Source: Candidatus Omnitrophota bacterium
GTDB lineage: Bacteria; Omnitrophota; Gorgyraeia; Gygaellales; Gygaellaceae
Reading direction: 5' to 3'
Length of the DNA: 48,763 nt
NCBI GenBank assembly: GCA_018400015.1
Contig: JAGYNB010000005.1
Span: 1 to 48,763 of the forward strand
Below, piece after piece: positions 10,784-18,041 of the stretch (its first letter is position 1; the number at the start of each line of letters is the position of its first letter). Below the pieces are notes generated by a model. That model made no database searches, was not told the origin of the DNA, and saw only the letters and a list, made by a program, of their open reading frames with translations. The position numbers and the translations under genes are program-made.

Positions 10784-11283
10784 TGAAGAGCAAACTTGTT
10801 TTATTTTTATTTATATCTTTTTGTTTTGTTAGTCTGGGCTTTGCCCAAAGAGTAACTAGCAAGGAATTAATCGAAAACGCAGCAGGTTATGATTTAAAGG
10901 AGGTTGTTTACCAAGGAGAAGCAATAGGAGAGGCCTTAGAAAGAGCCGATCATTGTTGGGTAAATGTACACGATGGTAATGCCGCTGTTGGCTTATGGTT
11001 AAGTCAGGATGATTGCAGTAAAATAAACTTTTTTGGCGACTATAACACCACAGGAGATACAATAGAAATAAAAGGGGTTTTTCATAGGTCGTGTACACAG
11101 CATTCTGGAGAGTTGGATATACATGTTGCAGAATTAAGGGTTGTAGAGCAGGGGGCAAAACGCGAGCATATATTCAACAGAAAAAAAATGAATTTATTTT
11201 TAGTTTTATTTAGCGTATTATGTCTATTATGGATATTACAAATATTAAAATTATTGCAGAGAAAGAAATCGCTCAGGCGGTAA
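10783..11283 (+). CDS. Exported OB-fold-like protein with C-terminal membrane anchor (function unknown)
   Basis: I do not recognise a named family with certainty. The 166-residue protein has a Sec-type signal peptide ending near GFAQ (residues 1-22). An exported domain of about 110 residues follows, containing ADHCWVNVHDG, GDTIEIKGVFHRSC and ELDIHVAELRVVEQG, which read like beta strands of an OB-fold or nucleic-acid-binding-like barrel. Residues 133-155 form a transmembrane helix before a basic tail. It would sit outside the inner membrane, held by the tail. It overlaps trkH by one base and pheS by 64 bases. Confidence 0.7.
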   Translation: MKSKLVLFLFISFCFVSLGFAQRVTSKELIENAAGYDLKEVVYQGEAIGEALERADHCWVNVHDGNAAVGLWLSQDDCSKINFFGDYNTTGDTIEIKGVFHRSCTQHSGELDIHVAELRVVEQGAKREHIFNRKKMNLFLVLFSVLCLLWILQILKLLQRKKSLRR

Positions 11284-12242
11284 CGCTTGAGGAATTAGAG
11301 ACCTTGCGTATAAAATACCTCGGTAAAAAAAGCCAACTCAGCAAAGTGCTTTCCGGGCTGGGTAAGCTGTCTCAACAAGAGCGTCCTTTAGTAGGTAAAG
11401 CTGCTAACGAATGCAAGATTATTATTCAAAGCCTCCTGGAAGAAAAGGTCAGCGCTTTCAAAATTAATTCAGCAGAGTCCGGTGTTGATATTACTCTCCC
11501 GGGCATAAGAAAAGAATTAGGAAAAGAACATATTATCAGCACTGTTTTAAAAGATATATCCGATGTATTTGTTAAAATGGGCTTTTGTGTTGTGCAGGGT
11601 CCGGAAATCGAAACAGAGTTCAATAATTTTACCGGGCTTAATATTCCCCTGGATCATCCCTCGAGAGAGTCATTTGACACCTTTTACATAAAAACCGAAA
11701 AAAATCGAGAGCGGCTTCTTTTAAGAAGTCATACTTCTCCTGTGCAGATCCGCGTGATGCGAGAGAATAAGCCTCCTTTGGCTGTGGTTGTTCCAGGTAA
11801 AGTCTATCGGCCTGATGCCGTTGATGCGAGTCATTCGTTTATGTTCCATCAAGTAGAGGGTTTTTTGGTAGATAAGAATATAAAATTTTCTGATCTTAAA
11901 GGCATGCTGCAGAAGTTTGCAGTAGAGTTTTTCGGCTCCCAAATTAAGATGCGTTTCCGCCCGCATTTTTTCCCGTTTACCGAACCATCAGCCGAGGCAG
12001 ACATTTCCTGTATTATTTGTCAGGGTAGGGGTTGTTCAGTGTGCGGCAGAAAAGGATGGCTTGAAATATTAGGTGCAGGCATGATCCATCCTAACGTGTT
12101 TAAACATGTTGGTTACAAACAAGGAGCTTATAGTGGTTTTGCTTTTGGCATGGGAGTTGAGAGGATCGCAATGTTAAAATACGGCATAAATGACATTAGG
12201 TTATTTTTTGAAAATGATAAAAGATTTTTAAAACAATTTTGA
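11220..12242 (+). CDS. pheS: Phenylalanine-tRNA ligase alpha subunit
   Basis: PheS is the catalytic half of the alpha2-beta2 enzyme that charges tRNA-Phe. The 340-residue protein has an N-terminal coiled coil (LRIKYLGKKSQLSKVLSGL). Class II motif 2 appears around LRSHTSPVQIRVM and VYRPDAVDASHSFMFHQVEG, and motif 3 as FGMGVERIAMLKYGI. The start could be 11220 or the second ATG at 11229. Either overlaps the preceding membrane-protein gene by 55-64 bases in another frame, with no obvious ribosome site. Confidence 0.95.
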   Translation: MSIMDITNIKIIAEKEIAQAVTLEELETLRIKYLGKKSQLSKVLSGLGKLSQQERPLVGKAANECKIIIQSLLEEKVSAFKINSAESGVDITLPGIRKELGKEHIISTVLKDISDVFVKMGFCVVQGPEIETEFNNFTGLNIPLDHPSRESFDTFYIKTEKNRERLLLRSHTSPVQIRVMRENKPPLAVVVPGKVYRPDAVDASHSFMFHQVEGFLVDKNIKFSDLKGMLQKFAVEFFGSQIKMRFRPHFFPFTEPSAEADISCIICQGRGCSVCGRKGWLEILGAGMIHPNVFKHVGYKQGAYSGFAFGMGVERIAMLKYGINDIRLFFENDKRFLKQF

Positions 12243-12245
12243 TTT

Positions 12246-14279
12246 ATGAAATTTACCTATAACTGGCTCAAGGATTATGTAAGCATAAAAGTCGGCCCGG
12301 AAAAGTTGGCAGAGATTCTTACTATGTCTGGTCTGGAAGTTAAGGCGTTAACAAAAAAAGCAGATGATTATATTTTTGACTGCGAGGTAACGCCGAATAG
12401 GCCTGATTTGCTTTCTCTCGTCGGTATTGCCAGGGAAGTATGCGCATTGACCGGTGGGCACATCAAAACCTCGCTCAATAAAATAAAAAGCAATATTAAG
12501 GAAAAAAATGGTTTCCAGGTTTTGGTTAAAGATAAAACAGCTTGCCCGCGCTATATGGCAGTAGTAGTAAAAGATGTTTGCGTTGGCGGTTCTCCAGCAT
12601 GGCTTAAAAAGAGAATAGAGGCAATTGGCTTAAGGAGCGTTAATAATATTGTTGATATTACTAATTATTCTCTTTGGGAATTGGGCCAGCCCATACACGC
12701 TTTTGATTTGGATAAGCTGAACAAACAAATAATCGTGCGCTTTGCAAATCCGGGTGAAAAAATCACTATCATAGACGGTAAAACCATGGAACTTGATGCG
12801 CGAACGCTGCTTATTTGTGACAATGCCAATCCTGTAGCTATTGCTGGTATAATGGGTGGTAAAGAGACAGAAGTTAAAAAAGAGACAAAAAATCTTCTTT
12901 TGGAATTTGCCTGTTTTGATCCAAAAATTATCCGTAGAGCCACTCGCAATTTGGGTTTATCCAGCGATTCCAGCTATCGTTTTGAAAGAGGCGTGGATTT
13001 GGAGGTTTTACCTTTTGCTGCCAAAAGAACATTAGATTTGATTAAGAACGTATCAAAAGATTGTTGTGTAAAACAGGTAACAGACCTTGGCACAAAAACA
13101 GGATATAAAAAGACAATTATTCTAGAACCGGATAAGCTCAATAATGTTTTAGGTGTAAGTATTACGGATAGCAAAATTTCAAGGATATTAAAATCTTTGG
13201 GGTTAAAATTAGCTAAATTAGAAAATTCATTTTCTGTAAAGATTCCTTCATTTAGACCCGATCTGTCCATAGAAGAGGATCTATTTGAGGAAGTTGCTAG
13301 AATCCACGGCTACTCGAACATAAAAAATACTCAGCCCTATATAAAATTTAACAGCGTAAAAGATGATCCGGCAGAAAATATAAAGCGAATTGCAAAGCAA
13401 AGCCTTTTAAGAGAAGGGTTTTTTGAGGCTATAACCTATTCTCTTTTAAGCGCTGCTTTAGCAGAAGAGCTCGGTTTTGCCAATACGGAAAGCCTCGAGC
13501 TTTTAAACCCGTTAAGCCAGGAGGCATCGGTTTTAAGACCGAGCTTATTGCCCGGGTTGCTACAGGTTGTTAAAAACAATATTGCTCGTCAGAATAAGGA
13601 TTTGAAGATTTTTGAAATCGGCAATATCTTTAATAAGGATAAAGAAACCGCACGCTTGGCTTTTGTTGCTACAGGGATAGATTATTCTGCTGTTAATTCG
13701 CGAGTTAACGTATGTGTTGAAACAAGTACCCTGCATTTAAAAGGGGTGATGGAAAATATTTTTTCTTCATTAGGTATTGAAGACGTTGAGTTTTTGCCTT
13801 GCCATGAGAAATTGTTTCATAGAGGCGAGTCTTTTATTGCGAAAAATAAAAGTACGACTTTGGCGATAATAGGCAAGGTTGAAAAATGCGCGCTTGAATC
13901 CATGGAGATAAAATCTCAGGATGTTTTTGCTTGCGAAATCTATTTAGACAGCGTTAAGAAGATCGCAAAACTTTTATCTGGGTTCAAGCCTTACAGTCAG
14001 TATCCTTTTGTTGTCCGCGATATTAGTCTTCTTGTAGAAGACAAGGTTGTTTTTAAACAGATAATATCGACGATCAAAGACTTAAACATATTATCAATAG
14101 AAGAAATAAAGCTAGCCGACTACTATAAAGGCAAGCATATTCCAAAAGGTTTTAAGGGGCTAACCGTGTCTATTAAATACAGGTCTGATCAGCATACCCT
14201 TACAGATAGCGATATCAATTCAATGCACGATAACATAAAACAAGCTTTAAAAACTAAATTGGAGGCCACTTTTAGGTAG
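12246..14279 (+). CDS. pheT: Phenylalanine-tRNA ligase beta subunit, short form
   Basis: PheT carries the B3/B4 editing module and, at its end, the ferredoxin-fold anticodon-binding domain. The protein is 677 residues, while many bacterial PheT have about 790-810. MKFTYNWLKDYVSIKVGPEK runs almost directly into DDYIFDCEVTPNRPDLLSL, so the roughly 110-residue EMAP/tRNA-binding insertion near the N-terminus is missing. The B5 domain (residues ~280-350) and the C-terminal FDX-ACB domain (YSQYPFVVRDISLLVED) are present. Only three bases separate it from pheS. Confidence 0.95.
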   Translation: MKFTYNWLKDYVSIKVGPEKLAEILTMSGLEVKALTKKADDYIFDCEVTPNRPDLLSLVGIAREVCALTGGHIKTSLNKIKSNIKEKNGFQVLVKDKTACPRYMAVVVKDVCVGGSPAWLKKRIEAIGLRSVNNIVDITNYSLWELGQPIHAFDLDKLNKQIIVRFANPGEKITIIDGKTMELDARTLLICDNANPVAIAGIMGGKETEVKKETKNLLLEFACFDPKIIRRATRNLGLSSDSSYRFERGVDLEVLPFAAKRTLDLIKNVSKDCCVKQVTDLGTKTGYKKTIILEPDKLNNVLGVSITDSKISRILKSLGLKLAKLENSFSVKIPSFRPDLSIEEDLFEEVARIHGYSNIKNTQPYIKFNSVKDDPAENIKRIAKQSLLREGFFEAITYSLLSAALAEELGFANTESLELLNPLSQEASVLRPSLLPGLLQVVKNNIARQNKDLKIFEIGNIFNKDKETARLAFVATGIDYSAVNSRVNVCVETSTLHLKGVMENIFSSLGIEDVEFLPCHEKLFHRGESFIAKNKSTTLAIIGKVEKCALESMEIKSQDVFACEIYLDSVKKIAKLLSGFKPYSQYPFVVRDISLLVEDKVVFKQIISTIKDLNILSIEEIKLADYYKGKHIPKGFKGLTVSIKYRSDQHTLTDSDINSMHDNIKQALKTKLEATFR

Positions 14280-14287
14280 GGGTGGTC

Positions 14288-14316
14288 TTGATTTTAGATA
14301 GGCCGTATGCTATACT
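14288..14316 (+). promoter_or_regulatory. Promoter of the probable 6S RNA
   Basis: TTGATT (14288-14293) and TATACT (14311-14316) are separated by exactly 17 bases, a good sigma-70-like promoter just nine bases after the pheT stop. The predicted transcription start is near 14323, at the beginning of a structured non-coding stretch. Confidence 0.75.
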
Positions 14317-14322
14317 TTAAAC

Positions 14323-14495
14323 AAGAAGGTTAAATTTTATCCCTGCTGTGAGCGCCGGGTAACTTATTGTGTGTTGAACCAACAGCACAAGAAAGGGAAC
14401 CTAACTTCATCTTGCCTGCGGGTAATTTGAGAGGGTACCCACCTGATTAACAGGGTTCAAAGCAATTTATCTGACGCCACCCGCGGGGTTTTTTT
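14323..14495 (+). ncRNA. ssrS: Probable 6S RNA (ssrS)
   Basis: The stretch has no reading frame but has its own promoter and a T-run end, giving a transcript of about 173 bases, close to the 6S norm of 160-200. CCCTG at 14341-14345 can pair with CAGGG at 14451-14455, and AAATT/AATTT outside them, forming a long irregular closing helix. Inside are a GTGTTG/CAGCAC hairpin and a GGGTA/TACCC hairpin. The TTGAACC and GGGAACC elements recall 6S RNAs. The position after pheT and before 5-formyltetrahydrofolate cyclo-ligase, rny and ymdB matches ssrS neighbourhoods in Proteobacteria. The identity is not proven without a covariance search. Confidence 0.65.
14479..14495 (+). terminator. Terminator at the 3' end of the probable 6S RNA
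   Basis: ACCCGCGGGG followed by seven T (14489-14495). ACCCGCG can pair with TGCGGGT at 14417-14423, or a short CCC-GCG-GGG hairpin can form locally. The T-run ends eight bases before the rarA start codon, so rarA may depend on read-through. Confidence 0.5.
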
Positions 14496-14502
14496 ATGCC
14501 CT

Positions 14503-15819
14503 ATGGATACAGATCTTTTTCCAACCAACACAATTCAGGAATCAAAAGACCTGCCTTTAGCAGCGCGCATGAGGCCGCGCTGTTTTAATGACTATATAGG
14601 CCAAAAACATATTTTGGGCAAAGGTAAATTGCTGCGCAGAGCAATAGAAGCAGACAGATTAAGCTCTTTAATTCTATACGGCGCACCAGGTTGTGGAAAA
14701 ACCAGTCTTGCCTATATGATTAGTTATATTACAAAAGCAGATTTTATCGAGCTTAATGCTACCAATGTTGGTTCAGAGGTGCTTCGTAAAAAAATCGCTC
14801 AGGCAAAACAAGCCAAACGCGCAACAGGAAAAAAGACAATTATTTTTATAGATGAATTGCATCGATTTAACAAAGCCCAGCAGGATATACTTATGCCTGA
14901 TGTGGAAAACGCCAGTTTTATCTTAATCGGAGCAACGGTTTATAATCCTTTTTTCTCTATTGTTTCAGCGTTATTATCGCGTTCTCTTATTTTTGAGTTG
15001 AAGCCTTTAAGCGAAGAGGATATAAGGCTAGTTATTGATAAGGTGCTTACAGATGAAGAAAAAGGGCTTGGTAATTTTAAAATTAAGCTTGCTCCTCAAG
15101 CAAAAACTTTTTTAAGTAAGGCCTGCGATGGAGATGCAAGACGGGTATTAAATGCATTAGAAATAGCCTTTTTAACAACTTCCCCCGACGAAGAGGGTGT
15201 AGTAAAAATAGATTTAGATATTACTCAGGAATCCATTCAAAAAAAAGCCGTAGTTTATGACGATAATTCAGACGCCCATTACGACACAGCATCTGCATTT
15301 ATAAAATCTATGCGCGGGACCGACCCCGATGCAGCTATTTATTGGATGGCTAAGATGCTTTATGCCGGAGAAGACCCCAGATTCATTGCAAGGCGCATTT
15401 GTATATGTGCTTGTGAAGATGTTGGTAATGCCGATCCCTTAGCGTTAGTTTTGGCCAACAGTGCTTTTAATTTGGTGGAATCTATTGGAATGCCTGAAGC
15501 ACGCATTGCCTTAGCCCAAGCAGCTATTTATGTTGCCTGTGCGCCAAAGTCCAATGCTTCTTATATGGCTATAGAAAAAGCCCAAGAGGATATTAAGAAT
15601 AATAGAACTCAAAGTCCTCCTGATAGCGTAAAAGACGCGCATTATAAGGGAGCGCAAAAGCTTGGTCGGGGTACAAATTATAAGTATGCACATGATTATA
15701 AAGACCACTATGTTAAGCAAGAGTATATGAAAAACCTCAAGAAATACTATCAGCCTACGGATTTGGGCTTTGAGGCGAAGATAAAAGAACGTCTTAAAAG
15801 ACGAAAAAGGGCTATCTAG
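14503..15819 (+). CDS. rarA: Replication-associated recombination protein A (RarA/MgsA AAA+ ATPase)
   Basis: RarA is a clamp-loader-like AAA+ ATPase acting at stalled replication forks. The 438-residue protein has MRPRCFNDYIGQKHILG and Walker A YGAPGCGKTS. Walker B is FIDELHRFNKAQQD, where the family usually has DEIHRF, and GATVYNPFFSIVSALLSRS is the sensor segment. The C-terminal tetramerisation region (CICACEDVGNADPLA) is complete. No ribosome site is visible because the upstream RNA terminator ends eight bases before the ATG. Confidence 0.93.
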   Translation: MDTDLFPTNTIQESKDLPLAARMRPRCFNDYIGQKHILGKGKLLRRAIEADRLSSLILYGAPGCGKTSLAYMISYITKADFIELNATNVGSEVLRKKIAQAKQAKRATGKKTIIFIDELHRFNKAQQDILMPDVENASFILIGATVYNPFFSIVSALLSRSLIFELKPLSEEDIRLVIDKVLTDEEKGLGNFKIKLAPQAKTFLSKACDGDARRVLNALEIAFLTTSPDEEGVVKIDLDITQESIQKKAVVYDDNSDAHYDTASAFIKSMRGTDPDAAIYWMAKMLYAGEDPRFIARRICICACEDVGNADPLALVLANSAFNLVESIGMPEARIALAQAAIYVACAPKSNASYMAIEKAQEDIKNNRTQSPPDSVKDAHYKGAQKLGRGTNYKYAHDYKDHYVKQEYMKNLKKYYQPTDLGFEAKIKERLKRRKRAI

Positions 15820-15894: not shown

Positions 15895-16446
15895 ATGGAT
15901 GACAAACAAAAGATAAGAAAAGAGATTCTTAAGAAAACAAAAGCATATAAGGAGGAGTTACGCTTAAGAAAAAGTTTATTGATTAAAAATAAGTTGTTTA
16001 AAACAAAAGAGTTTAAAGAAGCAGAAAATATTCTATTTTACTTGGCTTTTAAAGGAGAGGTTGAAACAAGAAAGATGATTGAAGATTCCCTCAAGATAGG
16101 CAAAACCGTATTAGTGCCTGTCTGTGATATGAAACGAAAGACTATAGTTCCTTCCAAAATAAGCAATTTATTCAAGGAGGAATTATGCATTGGATCCTAT
16201 GGCATAGAGCGTCCACGCAAAATAAGGAGCTTTTCAGCAAAAGACATTGATTTAGTTATTGTTCCTGCTGTTGCCTTTGATAAATACAATAATAGATTAG
16301 GACGCGGTAAAGGATACTATGATAGGTTCTTAAAAAAACTCAGTTCTAGAGTAAAAAAAATAGGTCTTGCCTTTAAGTTTCAAATCGTCGATCGCCTTCC
16401 TGTAAACCTCCTTGATCAGCCGGTGGATAGAGTGATAACTGCTTAA
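15895..16446 (+). CDS. 5-formyltetrahydrofolate cyclo-ligase
   Basis: The enzyme (fthC, also called ygfA or MTHFS) converts 5-formyl-THF to 5,10-methenyl-THF using ATP. The 183-residue protein has the basic N-terminus KIRKEILKKTKAYKEELR, a VLVPVCDM strand, LVIVPAVAFDKYNNRLGRGK, and GYYDRFL, the characteristic C-terminal phosphate-binding motif. TTG at 15892 is an alternative start. There is no ribosome site, and the predicted transcription start nearly coincides with the start codon. Its location beside the probable 6S RNA, with rarA between, parallels the ssrS-ygfA link. Confidence 0.9.
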   Translation: MDDKQKIRKEILKKTKAYKEELRLRKSLLIKNKLFKTKEFKEAENILFYLAFKGEVETRKMIEDSLKIGKTVLVPVCDMKRKTIVPSKISNLFKEELCIGSYGIERPRKIRSFSAKDIDLVIVPAVAFDKYNNRLGRGKGYYDRFLKKLSSRVKKIGLAFKFQIVDRLPVNLLDQPVDRVITA

Positions 16447-16487
16447 AATACTCTTAAAACCATAATTGTTAAGGAGGTGCATTGTTT

Positions 16488-18041
16488 ATGCTACATATTT
16501 TAATATACATTTTAATTGCTATTGTTTGCGCTTTTTTAGGCTATTTGTTTCAGGAAATGATGGCAAAGAAACATTCCGAATCTGCCAAAAATACTGCAAA
16601 GCAGATTATTGAATTAGCCAGAAAAGAAGCTGATACTAGGCGTAAAGAAATCGAAATAGAGGTAAAAGATAAACTTTATCAGATGCGCCAAGATTTTGAA
16701 GTTCAGACTAAGCAGCGTCGAGATGAACTTGGCAATCTGGAAAAGCGTCTTGTGACCCGCGAAGAGAATATAGACAAGCGCTTAGAGATGTTGGAGAAAA
16801 AAGAAAAAGATATCGATGTGCACTTACGTTCTGCTAAAGCGCAGGAAGAGAATTTAATAAAAAAAGATGCACACCTGCAGCAATTGATTACAGAAGAAAA
16901 GACAAGGCTTGAAAAAATATCTTCTCTTACTCAGGAAGAGGCGAAGCAGGTATTGCTTTTGCGTGTTCAGGAAGAACTTGATGAAGAAAAAGCAAAGCTG
17001 ATAAAAAAACAGGAAGAAGAGTTAAAATCAACCGCAGACAAGACCGCAAAAGAAATAATCAGTCTTGCGATTCAAAAGTGTGCTGCCGAGCATACAGTAG
17101 AAACTACTGTTAGTGTGGTTAGTCTTCCTAGTGACGAGATGAAAGGTCGTATCATTGGCAGAGAAGGGCGCAATATTCGCGCTTTGGAAATGGCCACAGG
17201 TGTTGATGTAATCATCGATGATACCCCTGAGGCGGTTACGATTTCAAGCTTTAACCCTGTAAGGCGCGAGGTGGCAAGACTTGCTTTAAGCAGACTTGTT
17301 TCTGACGGAAGGATTCATCCCGGGAGAATCGAAGAGGTAGTTGAAAAAGTAAAAGTTGAACTTGAGAATACCATTCGTGAAGAAGGAGAAAAGGCCGCGT
17401 TTGATGCCGGAGTACACGGTCTTAATCCCGAATTGGTCAAGGCCCTAGGCAGGTTAAAATATAGAACCAGCTATGGTCAGAACACCCTACAGCACTCTAA
17501 GGAGGTTGCTTATATTTTAGGCAATATGGCATCCGAGCTTGGTCTTGATGTGCGTTTAGCGCGCAGGGTTGGGTTATTGCACGATATTGGCAAGAGTCTT
17601 GATCAGCAGATTGAGGGCACGCATGCCCGCTTAGGTGCGGATATGGCCAGAAAATTCAATGAGTCCCAAACGGTAATAAATGCTATTGAGGCCCACCACG
17701 AAGAAACAGAAGCGAAGAATATTTATGCAGTGCTTGCTTTTGCAGCCGATGCAGTAAGTGCCGCTAGACCCGGAGCTCGAAGGGAGACGCTAGAAAGCTA
17801 TATAAAACGTTTGGAAAAGTTAGAATCTATTGCTAATATATTTAAAGGCGTGGAAAAGTCCTATGCTATACAGGCGGGTAGGGAAATCAGAGTTGCCGTT
17901 CAGCCCAATAAGATAAGCGACAGCGAAAGCATTAATTTAGCCAGAGATATTCGTAAAAAAATCGAAGAAGACATGGAATTTCCCGGGCAAATTAAGGTAA
18001 CTGTTATTAGAGAAACCCGTGCAATAGAATATGCAAAGTAA
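16488..18041 (+). CDS. rny: Ribonuclease Y
   Basis: RNase Y is a membrane-anchored endoribonuclease that starts mRNA decay. The 517-residue protein has an N-terminal transmembrane helix (about residues 2-22), a long charged coiled coil to about residue 190, and a KH domain with [19 protein letters not shown]. An HD domain with [10 protein letters not shown] follows, then a C-terminal region. The length agrees with the family (about 520). ATG at 16488 is ten bases from AGGAGG (16472-16477). TTG at 16482 is too close at four bases but cannot be excluded. Confidence 0.95.

Follow-up and report, generated by a model that had tools for sequence, protein, structure and literature searches.

The window, the complete stretch of 48,763 nt that was analysed, comes from a Candidatus Omnitrophota bacterium of the order Gygaellales (below, the order). 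Between the phenylalanine-tRNA ligase genes pheS and pheT and the group rarA, fau and rny, it carries a 6S RNA gene. All these features lie on the forward strand; they are listed in Table 1, together with the parts that can be recognised or predicted within the 6S gene.

Table 1. The 6S RNA gene of the window, its parts and its neighbours (window positions)
Feature	Coordinates	Strand	Evidence or remark
pheS	11220-12242	+	
pheT, phenylalanine--tRNA ligase beta subunit	12246-14279	+	NCBIfam TIGR00472, 640 bits, above cut-off; upstream neighbour of 6S
Sigma-70-type 6S promoter	14288-14316	+	TTGATT 14288-14293, 17-nt spacer, TG 14308-14309, TATACT 14311-14316
Predicted primary 6S transcript, about 173 nt	14323-14495	+	Start placed by the -10 box, end by the T-run
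6S / SsrS RNA	14337-14493	+	RF00013, 56.4 bits; order-level model R1, 114.6 bits (the window's 6S sequence is itself one row of the R1 alignment)
Closing stem, 5′ strand CCCTGC	14341-14346	+	Pairs with 14483-14488
Central loop, 5′ side, GAACCAACA	14376-14384	+	Likely product-RNA template
Closing stem, 3′ strand GCGGGG	14483-14488	+	Pairs with 14341-14346
U-tract of the presumed terminator	14489-14495	+	Seven T right after the closing stem
rarA (mgsA), replication-fork repair AAA+ ATPase	14503-15819	+	Pfam MgsA_C 230 bits, AAA_assoc_2, AAA
fau (ygfA), 5-formyltetrahydrofolate cyclo-ligase	15895-16446	+	TIGR02727, 158.8 bits
rny, ribonuclease Y	16482-18041	+	TIGR03319, 731.7 bits; next gene downstream of fau

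6S RNA is a small RNA, common in bacteria, that restrains RNA polymerase. The match to the Rfam 6S family (RF00013) stands above the cut-off of 46.4 bits and spans the full model (positions 1 to 187), with an E-value of 1.2e-8 for the whole window and of 7.7e-11 for a stretch of 311 nt. No other Rfam family reached an E-value of 1 in the stretch that holds the element, and no second 6S copy was found in the genome (assembly of 1.41 Mb in 69 contigs). The first-pass annotation, made from the sequence alone, had called the element a probable 6S RNA with a pairable structure and had proposed a covariance-model search as the check. The identity is confirmed by that search, in which the element scores above the Rfam gathering score, and so is the structure: the single-strand fold, at -56.8 kcal/mol, beats those of shuffled sequences (-44.5 +/- 4.3; z = -2.86).

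The fold has the rod shape of RF00013, with a closing stem, a large central loop and an apical stem, and the predicted RNA falls within the usual 6S length of about 160-200 nt, with a housekeeping promoter of its own. In single folds of the 6S sequences from 91 loci of the order, at least six closing-stem pairs were present each time. An alignment of 58 of the order's sequences predicts 27 consensus pairs, and for nine of these at least one sequence has a compensatory change; the closing-stem pairs occur in 58/58 and are nearly invariant, and this stem therefore contributes little covariation. On the 5′ side of the central loop, GAnCCAAnA is likewise near-invariant among the 58 and is the likely template of the product RNA. 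It would specify GG at product positions 4/5 if, as we infer, the polymerase begins opposite C 14383; a published study reports that product RNAs conserve GG at 4/5 or 5/6 (PMC8414754). We are confident that the element is a genuine, canonical 6S RNA gene with the ordinary 6S function. It adds a member to a family that is already known.

With the Rfam model, 6S was found in 91 of the 117 genomes of the order, in 90 of them above the cut-off. The order-level model (R1), built from 58 of these 91 sequences, gives strong matches in 12 of the 20 genomes searched among the 26 of the order that had no Rfam match; the Rfam search of the order missed real 6S genes. One Omnitrophota genome (G165) has two full-length 6S matches, of 97.2 and 74.2 bits, on contigs C76 and C78, and it is possible that it carries a 6S pair.

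A scan for promoters yields two sites against 0.9 expected in shuffled sequences, which is weak evidence taken alone. Across the order, a promoter matching at least nine of 12 positions is present within 75 nt upstream of 6S at 78 of the 91 loci (the mean for mononucleotide shuffles is 17), and all but four of these promoters (74 of 78) include the extended TG. It is through this conservation, rather than through the scan, that the strong promoter of the first-pass annotation is substantiated. The transcript of about 173 bases that it also put forward has the same length as the one that we predict from a start near 14323 and a last T at 14495.

The U-tract is kept as well: at least six T occur among the 10 nt 3′ of the closing stem at 86 of the 91 order loci. 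A local fold of -6 kcal/mol or lower was obtained with ViennaRNA at 79 of the 91, by a criterion too loose to separate a local hairpin from the long-range closing stem. Fewer than six T follow the closing stem at five loci. At three of these (L006, L016 and L057), a further hairpin was seen by eye downstream, which suggests that termination is worth keeping there. At the other two (L073 and L083), the T-run is lost and rarA is located at 13 and 4 nt, respectively; 6S and rarA presumably form one transcript. At L073 (genome G074), the 6S model starts 2 nt after the pheT stop codon, with neither a recognisable promoter nor a T-run, and this 6S RNA could be a processing product of a pheT-6S-rarA transcript.

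The position of 6S between pheT and rarA is no peculiarity of the window. In the order, rarA lies downstream of 6S on the same strand at 75 of the 91 loci, and pheT adjoins 6S in most of the relatives too. Elsewhere in Omnitrophota, 60 of 69 6S loci have rarA, in 59 cases downstream and on the same strand; these 69 comprise 29 loci from the search and the 40 next in the score-ranked list, so that weak 6S matches are under-represented. When we searched from the side of rarA, 43 of 50 Omnitrophota loci proved to hold 6S, 42 of them upstream and on the same strand. A 6S match was absent from seven of the 50, including one (L155) in which rarA starts 51 bases away from the contig edge. The gene order pheT-6S-rarA is phylum-wide in Omnitrophota.

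Two loci depart from it in orientation. At L208 (genome G300), 6S keeps its place between pheT and rarA but is encoded on the opposite strand, and at L121 it lies immediately upstream of rarA, again on the opposite strand. In both, an inversion of the 6S gene seems to have occurred in place, and rarA at these loci cannot, therefore, be read from the 6S promoter.

Among rarA loci not titled Omnitrophota, 12 of 30 have a same-strand 6S upstream (8/20 and 4/10 in two samples); the loci were taken from Nitrospirota, Verrucomicrobiota, Planctomycetes, Elusimicrobiota, Endomicrobia, Auribacterota, a Firmicute and unplaced bacteria. The arrangement of 6S followed by rarA is widespread and not special to the window.

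Sixteen loci of the order carry 6S without an adjacent rarA. We searched 15 of the 16 genomes concerned (G108 was left out) and found a RarA match at E 1e-30 in none of them, the control genome (G006) being found; several of these genomes are incomplete, and single absences are no proof. A trace of the loss is seen in a genome of the same genus (G001; L078, positions 1670-1750), where a frame of 26 codons, MDLFPLKHSNYYNHNELCFEAKIKRA, directly follows an intact 6S. This frame is similar to the N terminus of RarA at one end and to the C terminus at the other, which implies that rarA was deleted internally while 6S was kept. Among eight tested order genomes without a full 6S match, three have a RarA match: the 3′ end of 6S is cut by the contig edge in one (G005), a run of N separates pheT from rarA in another (G088), and the third (G078) combines a partial rarA match with no full 6S match. 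In no assessable order genome examined was rarA located away from 6S. The tie between the two genes is one-sided, in that 6S persists without rarA.

These genomes also bear on the reading of the element as a leader or attenuator of rarA rather than as 6S RNA. Its location directly before rarA and its terminal U-tract are in favour of this reading, but we regard it as scarcely credible: the Rfam 6S match is above the cut-off over the full model, the element is retained in 15/15 tested genomes from which rarA is gone, and the congener with the rarA deletion scar has it intact. The link between a growth-phase RNA and fork repair that had been proposed for the locus is not an obligatory one, in view of the 15 genomes that have 6S without RarA and of the two inverted loci.

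In the window, the last T of the U-tract is at 14495 and the ATG of rarA begins at 14503. The first-pass annotation had seen this near-contact correctly, although we count seven bases between the two and not eight; it had also noted that no ribosome site is left, and indeed no Shine-Dalgarno-like word precedes this ATG. Near-contact recurs: the ATG of rarA is at most 15 nt from the end of the 6S model at 20 of the 75 order loci, which belong to 13 genera in three families. At L014, L029 and L030 it abuts the T-run with zero bases between, and in a locus from Kiritimatiellae (L144) the T-run likewise runs into the rarA ATG.

A Shine-Dalgarno word before rarA was found at none of the 20 short-gap loci and at six of the 55 order loci with longer gaps. 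The idea that the terminator squeezes out the ribosome site of rarA, which the first-pass annotation implied, is unsupported and was rejected, given that the other 49 of the 55 longer-gap loci are also without Shine-Dalgarno word; its absence is therefore a trait of rarA in the order and does not stem from the terminator. Elsewhere in the window, strong Shine-Dalgarno words precede many genes (e.g., those at 2161, 7577, 18839, 33180 and 47646), and others have none. Two ORFs without one, at 466 and 5124, carry TATACT or TATAAT at 5-7 nt from the ATG, as though their mRNAs lacked a leader. Several of the long 6S-rarA gaps (L021, L027, L056, L069 and others) hold palindromic insertions with recurring ends, GAGGCC...GGCC and ...ATCCCG, noticed by eye; they look like a small repeated element landing beside the 6S terminator.

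How, then, is rarA transcribed? Sigma-70-like sites between 6S and rarA were found at one of the 20 short-gap loci, against 1.3 in shuffles, and at three of 41 long-gap loci, against 3.8; the scan covered sigma-70-like sites only and 61 of the 75 loci, the 14 whose gaps measure 16-44 nt lying outside it. Internal promoters within 6S or the gap, being no more frequent than in shuffles, were rejected as a source. The sole conserved promoter seen upstream of rarA is that of 6S, and with no promoter above chance between the two genes, read-through from 6S would be the likeliest source of rarA mRNA. The near-contact of 6S and rarA is real and recurrent, and read-through is plausible; that rarA mRNA does arise by read-through from the 6S promoter we consider about evenly balanced.

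A 6S gene that stands alone and is efficiently terminated, with rarA expressed either from a promoter type of its own that the scan missed or from a leaderless mRNA starting at the ATG, would agree with the U-tract kept at 86 of the 91 order loci, and several other window ORFs without Shine-Dalgarno, such as those at 466 and 5124, do have, judged by eye, a -10-like hexamer just before the ATG. The motif TAnnnT, however, precedes the rarA ATG at two of the 20 short-gap loci compared with 3.1 in shuffles, which is no enrichment, and at 13 of the 55 long-gap loci compared with 8.6, a slight excess. In abutting loci such as L014, moreover, the bases before the ATG consist of the T-run and the 6S stem, which speaks against a promoter belonging to rarA. 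We think this explanation rather unlikely.

Transcription of rarA mainly from the promoter of the pheST operon, through the 6S gene, with the 6S promoter serving 6S alone, is a further alternative; pheST read-through could supply rarA just as well, yet as the main source we hold it unlikely. In its favour are the distance from the end of pheT to the start of the 6S model (median of 66 nt at the 72 loci measured) and L073, with its 6S model 2 nt after the pheT stop and no recognisable 6S promoter. In the window, however, a terminator-like hairpin (14262-14289; 0.6 such sites expected there by chance) overlaps the pheT stop codon, and the U-tract of 6S, which is in the sense direction, would also hinder a transcript from pheST.

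Read-through from the 6S promoter could be integrated with the ordinary work of 6S as follows. The 6S RNA, abundant and of about 170 nt, would fold into the usual rod and mimic an open promoter; it would occupy the housekeeping RNA polymerase holoenzyme under nucleotide scarcity and be released as the polymerase transcribes part of the central loop into a short product RNA. The majority of the transcripts would stop at the U-tract, and a minority would read through it to give the mRNA of rarA and perhaps of fau. There would then be a loose ssrS-rarA unit, resembling ssrS-fau in Escherichia coli, with the 6S gene as its promoter-proximal part, and rarA would be translated without a Shine-Dalgarno from an AUG just past the rod of 6S and some U-rich sequence. 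Tentatively, we propose that in Omnitrophota, and perhaps more widely, 6S may serve rarA as both its promoter and a structured leader, the closing stem and the U-tract forming a leaky terminator whose read-through share sets the level of RarA; the one-sided pattern would reflect a rarA that has no promoter of its own. We give this proposal a somewhat less than even chance.

The E. coli locus is of the same Rfam family, has fau downstream on the same strand and has a coding gene close behind 6S: in strain K-12, ssrS (3055983-3056165) is followed directly by fau from 3056241, whereas the window has rarA between 6S and fau. Upstream, zapA in E. coli contrasts with pheT in the window, and the E. 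coli sequence is without the T-run that follows the closing stem directly in the window. According to the study already cited, lactic acid bacteria have rarA upstream of 6S, and rarA beside 6S-1 of Bacillus subtilis runs in the opposite direction (PMC8414754). These loci share with the window a rarA gene next to 6S as well as a promoter and a downstream terminator, but in the window rarA follows 6S in the same direction, with the U-tract almost reaching the ATG. A same-strand 6S upstream of rarA is shared with Nitrospirota, Verrucomicrobiota, Kiritimatiellae, Elusimicrobiota and Planctomycetes, in which, unlike in the window, the gaps are mostly longer, up to about 2.2 kb (L136). In the literature searched, we found no paper on the arrangement of 6S followed by rarA, of which a survey of bacterial 6S from 2014 may hold an earlier mention, nor any on 6S in Omnitrophota or Omnitrophica.

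A canonical 6S RNA with conserved promoter and U-tract is now placed in Omnitrophota, and the neighbourhood of 6S and rarA, known from lactic acid bacteria, extends in the form 6S-then-rarA over several other phyla. Should rarA depend on read-through from 6S, there would be a testable reason for the company that the two genes keep; if the proposed leader role is true, RarA output would track the transcription of 6S and so link fork repair with the growth phase.
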